NCBI RefSeq assembly: GCF_021044585.1
Contig: NZ_CP087998.1
Coordinates: forward strand, 310,001 to 374,000
Reading direction: 5' to 3'
Source: Sulfurimonas sp. HSL-3221
GTDB lineage: Bacteria; Campylobacterota; Campylobacteria; Campylobacterales; Sulfurimonadaceae
DNA: 64,000 nucleotides
In this document: positions 18,427 to 48,274 of the stretch, one piece after another
Position numbering within the stretch: the first letter of the stretch is position 1
Layout: every line of letters begins with the position of its first letter
The notes under the pieces: generated by a model
What the model saw: only the letters and a program-made list of their open reading frames with translations
The model's database searches: none
What the model was told of the DNA's origin: nothing
Position numbers and translations under genes: made by a program

Positions 18427-18570
18427 TTGTTCCCCTTCTTTTTTGCTTATCCAAAAAAGAAGCCGAACCGGGAAGAAAAAAGGATAAAAGGCTGCCGCTC
18501 TCGGGCACTGCCATGCCTAGGTGATCCGCTCGACCCGCTAACTACCGTTTCGGCCTTGACGGAAAAGCAG
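18427..18570. repeat. dispersed structured repeat, copy A
   Basis: This intergenic element matches 47204-47347 without a gap, with about 75% identity counted by eye (106 of 141 compared bases). Helix 1 pairs 18435-18444 with 18453-18462 (10 bp, 8-base loop). Helix 2 pairs TTATCC in that loop (18447-18452) with GGATAA (18482-18487). Together they make an H-type pseudoknot. Six of these base pairs differ from copy B by compensatory changes. Conserved blocks follow: GGCTGCCGCT, ATCCGCTCGAC and TTCGGCCTTGACGGAA. A short open frame through the repeat is probably not a gene. Confidence 0.75.
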
Positions 18571-18583
18571 ATGTTGATACTCT

Positions 18584-47203: not shown

Positions 47204-47347
47204 TTGTTCCCTTTCTTCTTTGCTCGCACAAAGAAGAAACCGAACCCGAAAGAAGAAAGTGCGAAAGGCTGCCGCTTTCGGGATATTCCATTCTCTTGTT
47301 ATCCGCTCGACACGCTAATTTGCGCTTCGGCCTTGACGGAAGAAGCG
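47204..47347. repeat. dispersed structured repeat, copy B
   Basis: The second copy of the element at 18427-18570, starting 7 bases after the arsB stop. Helix 1 pairs TTTCTTCTTT (47212-47221) with AAAGAAGAAA (47230-47239). Helix 2 pairs TCGCAC (47224-47229, in the helix 1 loop) with GTGCGA (47259-47264); loop lengths equal those of copy A. Here helix 2 has four base pairs changed relative to copy A and helix 1 two, all preserving pairing. Confidence 0.75.
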
Positions 47348-47363
47348 GATTGCCGCATGCTTC

Positions 47364-47426
47364 TCTTAACTCTTAACTCTTAACTCTTAACTCTTAACTC
47401 TTAACTCTTAACTCTTAACTCTTAAC
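47364..47426. repeat. perfect nine-copy heptamer tandem repeat TCTTAAC
   Basis: Nine uninterrupted units of TCTTAAC (63 bases) run from just after the structured repeat and end at 47426. That base is also the last base of the heme O synthase stop codon (reverse strand). Such perfect repeats mutate in length by slippage. Change here would not alter any protein, but could affect the 3' end or terminator of the oxidase operon. Confidence 0.95.
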
Positions 47427-48274
47427 TAGATCGTATCGATACTCATCAGGGTCATTGTGCCCAGCAGGAAGAGGTTGATCCCCCGGAAAAGGGTACTGGC
47501 GCGTTCCGCGGTGAGCTGTCGGAAGGGGATGCGTCCGCCCGCGGCGGCCGTGGCGGCGGCCAGTGCTGCCAGCAGTAGAAGGATGGCGGAGCTTCTGATC
47601 CCGAAGATCGCCGCGGTGTAGAGGGCGCAGAAGATGGTGAGCATCCACCAGACGCAGAGCACCCGTCGAAACCCGGTCTCGCCGAAGATCTCGACGGCCG
47701 TCGGGAAGCCCGCGGCGCGGTAGTCGGCGTCGTGTTTGGCCGCGAGGAGCCAGAAGTGGGGGACCTGCCAGACGAAAAAGAGCAGCCCCAGCGCAAAGAA
47801 CTCCGGATCGGCGAGGCTCCGCCCTGCGGCGAGCCAGCCGATGGCAGGGGGGATCATCCCCAGCAGGCCTCCCGGTACGACGGCGAAGGCCGAATAGCGT
47901 TTGAGGATGGTGTAGACGCCGTTGTACCAGAAAGGGACGAAGAGGAAGAGCAGCAGGCCCGTCGTCTTCAGGGTGGCGGAGATCAGGAGCGTCCCCAGGG
48001 CGATCAGCGCCAGTGAGACGGCCAGTGCGGCATCGGGATGGACCCGCCCAGAGGGGATGGGCCGCCGTTTCGTGCGTTTCATCTTGCTGTCGCTCTCCCA
48101 CTCCTGGTACTGGTTCAGCGCCGAAACGCCCAGGGCGAGGAGCAGCACGGCCAGCGTCGAGGGGAGAAGCGGCGCAAGATCTCTGCCGCCGCCCAGGGCG
48201 AAGCCGAAAACGGCGGAGAGCGTCACCGCCGCCGAGAGGCGGAATTTGGTCAGTTCCATCAGTGTGCGAATCAT
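47426..48274 (-). CDS. ctaB: heme O synthase (protoheme IX farnesyltransferase)
   Basis: A 282-residue membrane prenyltransferase with about nine helices. It attaches a farnesyl group to heme B, making heme O for the oxidase encoded beside it. The active-site region has NQYQEWESD (about residues 54-62), where E. coli CyoE has NNYIDRDID; the second motif YTILKR...GMIPPAIGWLA is also present. A conservative Glu replaces the first Asp. It is the last gene of the oxidase operon and overlaps coxB by 4 bases (ATGA). Confidence 0.93.
   Translation of the reverse strand: MIRTLMELTKFRLSAAVTLSAVFGFALGGGRDLAPLLPSTLAVLLLALGVSALNQYQEWESDSKMKRTKRRPIPSGRVHPDAALAVSLALIALGTLLISATLKTTGLLLFLFVPFWYNGVYTILKRYSAFAVVPGGLLGMIPPAIGWLAAGRSLADPEFFALGLLFFVWQVPHFWLLAAKHDADYRAAGFPTAVEIFGETGFRRVLCVWWMLTIFCALYTAAIFGIRSSAILLLLAALAAATAAAGGRIPFRQLTAERASTLFRGINLFLLGTMTLMSIDTI

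Follow-up and report, generated by a model that had tools for sequence, protein, structure and literature searches.

The question raised by this locus is whether two copies of a dispersed repeat, A and B, keep a common fold and, if so, whether that fold belongs to DNA or to RNA. Both lie on the + strand of the window, by which we mean the whole stretch of 64,000 nucleotides analysed here (positions 310001-374000 of a complete 2,524,721-bp genome). The initial annotation had aligned the copies without gaps and reported 106 of 141 bases as identical; in its frame we count 109 of 144, which bears out the alignment. The 8-base loop, its six pairing bases and the spacing of 29 bases occur in both copies as it described, and so are the letters of its second helix (TTATCC/GGATAA in A, TCGCAC/GTGCGA in B). 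We also confirm the hairpin, whose length was given as 10 bp and is in fact 11 bp in A and B; below it follow a CC x CC internal loop and then a basal GTTC/GAAC helix. The features of the two copies are:

18429..18573, + strand: copy A, whole repeat, about 145 nt, from alignment to copy B and relatives' copies (3' limit approximate)
18435..18462, + strand: hairpin of copy A, from pair counts in 41 copies
18435-18445, 18446-18451 and 18452-18462, + strand: pyrimidine arm, loop and purine arm of copy A
18429-18432 with 18465-18468, + strand: basal helix of copy A
18472..18481, + strand: putative purine third strand of copy A, GAAGAAAAAA, parallel complement of the pyrimidine arm
18482..18487, + strand: tail of copy A, GGATAA, pseudoknot with loop bases TTATCC (18447-18452)
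47206..47350, + strand: copy B, whole repeat, about 145 nt, with convergent arsB and ubiA-like genes on either side
47212..47239, + strand: hairpin of copy B, from pair counts in 41 copies
47212-47222, 47223-47228 and 47229-47239, + strand: pyrimidine arm, loop and purine arm of copy B
47206-47209 with 47242-47245, + strand: basal helix of copy B
47249..47258, + strand: putative purine third strand of copy B, AAAGAAGAAA, from three-strand agreement
47259..47264, + strand: tail of copy B, GTGCGA, pairing with loop bases TCGCAC (47224-47229)

Plain DNA folding, which models neither a triplex nor a pseudoknot, gave the whole 145 nt of copy A a result modestly better than shuffles (z -1.25 and -1.72) and that of copy B a better one (z -2.52 and -3.16). 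Directly 3' of copy B is a perfect tandem array of the heptamer CTCTTAA (9.3 copies, window 47363-47427) that overlaps the end of the ubiA-like gene; in G004 the array at the orthologous site is down to about 2 units. Heptamer arrays of other kinds follow copies L004 and L011.

A search of relatives by covariance model, as had been suggested with the initial annotation, uncovered many further copies. The model (R1) was built from 41 distinct copies of this genome and four related genomes and, together with BLAST, identified 16 copies in this chromosome. Three related complete genomes hold 17, 17 and 18 copies, and more are present in draft relatives; weaker opposite-strand matches at the same places represent the hairpin matching itself and were left out of these counts. 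E-values and gene calls are rough throughout. Within the family, the repeat is numerous in just one other genus, g8 (G014, G047), and most genera are devoid of it. A second model, R2, found almost no matches in 200 Campylobacterota genomes, so that the repeat family is patchy, with g1 and g8 carrying distinct variants of it. Eight copies (L002, L014, L058, L075, L076, L080, L099 and L101) carry an enlarged hairpin loop with two extra small hairpins (...GGCATTTAGTGCC...GCGCTTTAGCGC...) in which the loop-tail pairing is kept. At one g8 locus (L145, G047:C1:1846500-1852000), four copies form a direct tandem array, each within a non-coding unit of about 300-750 bp that has further motifs in common with the others.

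Across the 41 distinct copies, 97.1% of the cells are paired, as against 44-57% in slid registers. Both sides have changed in 9 of the 20 pairs, and the 101 double-changed cells compare with 35.5 +/- 5.7 after shuffling, none of 500 shuffles reaching the observed number; the counts of paired and of changed cells and the covariation score were not equalled in these 500 shuffles either. Loop and tail occur as matching sets, TTATCC/GGATAA, TCGCAC/GTGCGA, TTGCAC/GTGCAA, TTGCCC/GGGCAA, TTGTCC/GGACAA, TTGTGC/GCACAA, TCGTAC/GTACGA and TTGCTC/GAGCAA, and the basal helix covaries between genera (GTTC/GAAC, GTTA/TAAC, GTCA/TGAC, GCTA/TAGC, TCAA/TTGA). A set of 47 sequences, chosen for matching tail and third strand and hence informative for covariation only, showed 102 double-changed cells in pseudoknot and hairpin. 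The paired positions of these two elements do not change independently in the 41 copies, and the proposal that the structure itself is selected, be it as DNA or as RNA, is strongly supported by this far larger alignment. A further 3-bp stem that had been proposed on the basis of two copies (GGC/GCC versus GGA/TCC) did not hold up, as its two bases are nearly independent over 45 copies (A-T 21, A-G 10, G-T 8, G-G 2, A-C 2, A-A 1, C-G 1) and the agreement is attributed to chance.

The covariation extends to a third strand. Between hairpin and tail runs a purine linker that complements the pyrimidine arm in parallel orientation. It thereby mirrors the purine arm, and a direct copy of that arm is ruled out. 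Arm and third strand read CTTCTTTTTT with GAAGAAAAAA in copy A, TTTCTTCTTT with AAAGAAGAAA in copy B and CTTTTTCTTT with GAAAAAGAAA in relatives; in g8 the arms are different and obey the same rule, for example TTTTTCTCT with AAAAAGAGA and TTTCTTTCTT with AAAGAAAGAA. Pyrimidine arm, purine arm and third strand change together. For an unbiased test, a public genome collection was searched with a pattern that specifies the hairpin only, GTTACTTYYYTTTG N6 CAAARRRAAGTAAC, and at least 114 stretches were found, mostly in Pseudomonadota; among the matches listed are single loci labelled Spirochaetes, Bacteroidetes, Desulfobacterales and Ruminococcus, plus one viral contig. The exact 8-base third strand is present, at one fixed position and on one side only, in 90 of 108 distinct loci among the matches listed, compared with 36.0 on average and at most 58 when third strands were shuffled among these 108 loci (2000 shuffles). 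In 72 distinct loci, taken from rows filtered for a match at 6 of 8 positions, the three variable positions agree across the strands in 211 of 216 cells.

A polymerase copies an arm only in antiparallel orientation, so template switching cannot yield a parallel complement, and selection on a three-stranded fold would be the natural reading. The strand order is pyrimidine, purine, purine, and the third strand matches the purine arm antiparallel, as in class II intrastrand triplexes; we infer that it forms a triplex. The data strongly support a widespread bacterial repeat family, with A and B among its members, in which hairpin, third strand and loop-tail pairing covary and in which a three-stranded fold, probably one of single-stranded DNA, would be kept by selection. 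Of 95 loci with an exact third strand, 36 have a second small pseudoknot in the 55 nt upstream of the hairpin (L165-L275), directly adjoining its 5' side (0.14 expected from shuffles).

Elsewhere, ten named genomes have 4 to 96 R2 matches each. In Methylomonas and Dyella, many matches form inverted pairs with a spacing of about 0.5-3.7 kb; the close pairs seen in Xanthomonas are arranged the opposite way. The inverted similarity spans about 120-290 bp per side in the Methylomonas pairs examined, and gene cassettes or other cargo were rejected for these pairs, as there are mostly no coding genes in between. An inverted pair in Stenotrophomonas nitritireducens (L168, 412-3444) surrounds one large norB-like (nitric oxide reductase) gene, in contrast to the mostly gene-free Methylomonas pairs. 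BoxC/TM-like purine motifs (GGGAGAGGGTTGGGGTGAGGG) occur in or beside Methylomonas inverted pairs (L329 position 810, L324 position 496). The mainly Pseudomonadota set shows no clear gene-orientation preference.

No named element had been recognised in the initial annotation, a statement that has to be qualified, as the repeat fits a kind known from BoxC/PIT/TM. The comparison with Rfam suggested at the time gave no credible match at gathering or relaxed thresholds, a literature search by sequence gave none, and neither a description nor a name was found for the A/T-rich, pseudoknot-locked triplex form in the part of the literature covered. REP/REPIN elements, which are associated with TnpA_REP (RAYT), are dispersed repeats thought to move as single-stranded DNA. 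They resemble the present repeat in being structured, dispersed and intergenic and often forming inverted pairs, but the latter begins with GTTCCC or GTTAC, lacks the GTAG tag and would combine a triplex with a pseudoknot. H-DNA mirror repeats are comparable, since purine arm and linker together make up a mirror repeat of purines; here, however, the pyrimidine partner is on the same strand, in a hairpin, and a pseudoknot lock is predicted. An intrinsic terminator was not found at the hairpins on either strand (no T run, counts within shuffles), and terminator and sigma-70 promoter were both rejected as neither gave a signal above shuffles.

By its strand order the repeat fits the class II intrastrand triplex kind, exemplified by BoxC/PIT/TM_ECO (Holder et al. 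2015, PMC4666352). According to that study, a TM_ECO oligonucleotide adopts a stable triplex in vitro, no stable triplex was seen by footprinting in vivo, and purine-motif triplexes cannot form in RNA. The repeats described there also form inverted pairs, are concentrated close to the origin of E. coli K-12, lack promoter or terminator activity and are associated with sequence variability; the paper does not mention pseudoknots or covariation (PMC4666352). Common to both are the order of pyrimidine arm, purine arm and purine third strand, the intergenic location, the many copies and the inverted pairs, and A/T-rich triplex motifs were counted as a group in the survey (PMC4666352). In contrast to BoxC/PIT/TM_ECO, where the arms are CCCTCNCCC, those of the present repeat are A/T-rich, its loop of 6-8 nt pairs with a tail, its basal helix covaries, its arm, third strand and loop form covarying classes, and its replication polarity is fixed in the genus. 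Its length is 145 nt here and roughly 260-380 nt in Methylobacter and Methylomonas, a further difference. The TM_ECO consensus, CCCTCNCCC N3-6 GGGNGAGGG N3 GGGNGAGGG, has no match within the window. The kind of triplex is thus already known, and what we did not find described is the putative combination of A/T-rich arms with a pseudoknot lock.

Of several possible explanations, we favour, at about even confidence, a non-coding dispersed DNA repeat whose core folds as a single-stranded class II triplex during replication and is selected through copying or exchange. On the given strand, the purine arm of the hairpin would also carry the purine third strand, antiparallel to it, and base pairs between hairpin loop and tail would lock the resulting pyrimidine-purine-purine triplex at its top. 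The fold would most probably arise as the replication fork leaves the DNA of the lagging-strand template single-stranded, and would be kept by selection because it is a substrate for copying or exchange of the repeat. Selection would act on propagation and not on a host function, the element being non-autonomous, probably mobile in the past and now reshuffled by gene conversion. With somewhat less assurance, we suggest that the pseudoknot-locked three-stranded fold is itself the selected, functional entity, serving as a recognition structure for a putative copying or exchange machinery in lagging-strand replication, in a very widespread repeat family whose three strands covary across phyla.

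Support for the single-stranded triplex comes from the covariation of two helices in 41 copies and the three-strand rule in the genus, in g8 and in other phyla, from the in vitro triplex of the related TM_ECO oligonucleotide (PMC4666352), and from the wobble counts, polarity, class swapping, empty site and template-switch corrections detailed below. We count against it the missing polarity in G047, the negative in vivo result for TM_ECO, the wobble pairs in one of our sets and the lack of suitable enzymes. Neither Y1 transposase (PF01797), the enzyme of REP/REPIN with RAYT, nor reverse transcriptase (PF00078; retron, group II intron etc.) is encoded in G000, G004, G005 or G007, and TnpB (PF07282; omega-RNA elements) and IS110 (PF01548; bridge-RNA elements) are absent from the complete genomes of the genus; all four were rejected as current mobilisers for this reason.

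Were the active form instead an RNA of the - strand, a pyrimidine third strand would run parallel to the purine arm (U.A-U, C+.G-C) as in telomerase and MALAT1, and the fold would protect or end the 3' part of - strand gene transcripts. The same covariation fits such pyrimidine-motif triples, which are possible in RNA where purine-motif triples are not (PMC4666352). Read on the - strand, the repeat shares with telomerase/MALAT1 RNA the order Hoogsteen pyrimidine, Watson-Crick pyrimidine, purine and the pseudoknot, but it is a dispersed multi-copy DNA repeat and shows no clear RNA wobble signature: G.U pairs are not in excess on the - strand. In one set T.G and C.A mismatches are equally rare, which is unlike an RNA helix; another, unselected set has 15 T.G versus 3 C.A, and the small upstream pseudoknot 6 versus 3. 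In the genus, a - strand gene often has its stop codon just past the 3' end of the repeat; the basal helix covaries, and the short linker would suit a deep-groove path. That linker, by the same kind of reasoning, looks short for a B-form triplex if the basal helix is intact, which counts against the triplex fold and implies that long hairpin and triplex may be alternative states. As the Pseudomonadota lack a clear orientation preference, terminator and promoter signals stay within shuffles and the other loop would, on the - strand, have just 2 nt for crossing 6 bp, we consider a - strand RNA unlikely. In the reading favoured here, DNA rather than RNA would be the active form.

The placement of the copies could point to a host role in chromosome organisation, namely as a polar signal or a site of fork pausing, close to the origin and between convergent genes. 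In four complete genomes of the genus, all 68 copies are oriented from origin to terminus and none is found at about 0.95-1.95 Mb, in the terminus region; dnaA begins at base 1, and the GC skew of sampled loci, positive as far as about 0.95 Mb and negative between 1.97 and 2.46 Mb, agrees with this polarity. The copies occupy about 19 sites, most of them common to several species and with flanks mostly 88-97% identical, so that the 68 copies are non-independent and count as about 19 sites. By heuristic gene calls, 14 of the sites are convergent gaps, three are (-,-) and two (+,+); of the neighbour pairs in the window, only 8 of 55 are convergent. Against this role, most genera of the family do without the repeat, one site is empty, polarity is absent in G047 (genus g8), and elsewhere the copy number ranges from 4 to 96 with inverted pairs; we regard it as rather improbable. 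Polarity from origin to terminus as a general rule is rejected, as it fails in G047.

Still less credence is given to a + strand RNA in which the hairpin, following the stop codon of a leading-strand gene, acts as mRNA 3' stabiliser or terminator. At many sites the + gene's stop codon is indeed found 5-12 nt upstream of the hairpin, T.G exceeds C.A in one set, and the loop lengths fit a classical H-type pseudoknot. Copy A is an exception, being flanked by two - strand genes, the hairpin is not followed by a T run, the Pseudomonadota show no clear orientation preference, and RNA does not allow the pairing of a purine third strand (PMC4666352).

The single-stranded DNA reading finds further support in the exchange between copies. 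At shared sites, the class of arm, loop, third strand and tail differs between species, and chimeras with mismatched loop and tail are few (L083, L086), which argues for exchange of whole units. G003 has the junction on the arsB/ubiA side without a repeat. Corrections of the CC x CC internal loop are always on the 3' arm, which in 3 of 54 copies (L013, L066, L102) has become GGGAAC and so gives a perfect palindrome. Template switching in the nascent leading strand is expected to leave just such a corrected 3' arm, and the correction implies that the hairpin forms in DNA. These corrections, the class swapping and the few chimeras might suggest that template switching and gene conversion alone maintain the pairing, with no selection at all, but this was already unlikely and is the least probable reading, as the third strand matched in 90 of 108 loci listed cannot be copied from either arm and chimeras are so few.

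The role of DNA triplexes in living cells has so far been argued mainly from sequence motifs. Three-way covariation is evidence beyond motif counts, as the third strand tracks the arm in independent lineages, in a family that is common in Pseudomonadota with up to 96 model matches per genome. The repeat provides a short sequence that is easy to make and comes with natural variants as well as compensatory mutants already built in; it is suited to direct triplex tests and would also allow tests of the effect of a triplex on replication and exchange.
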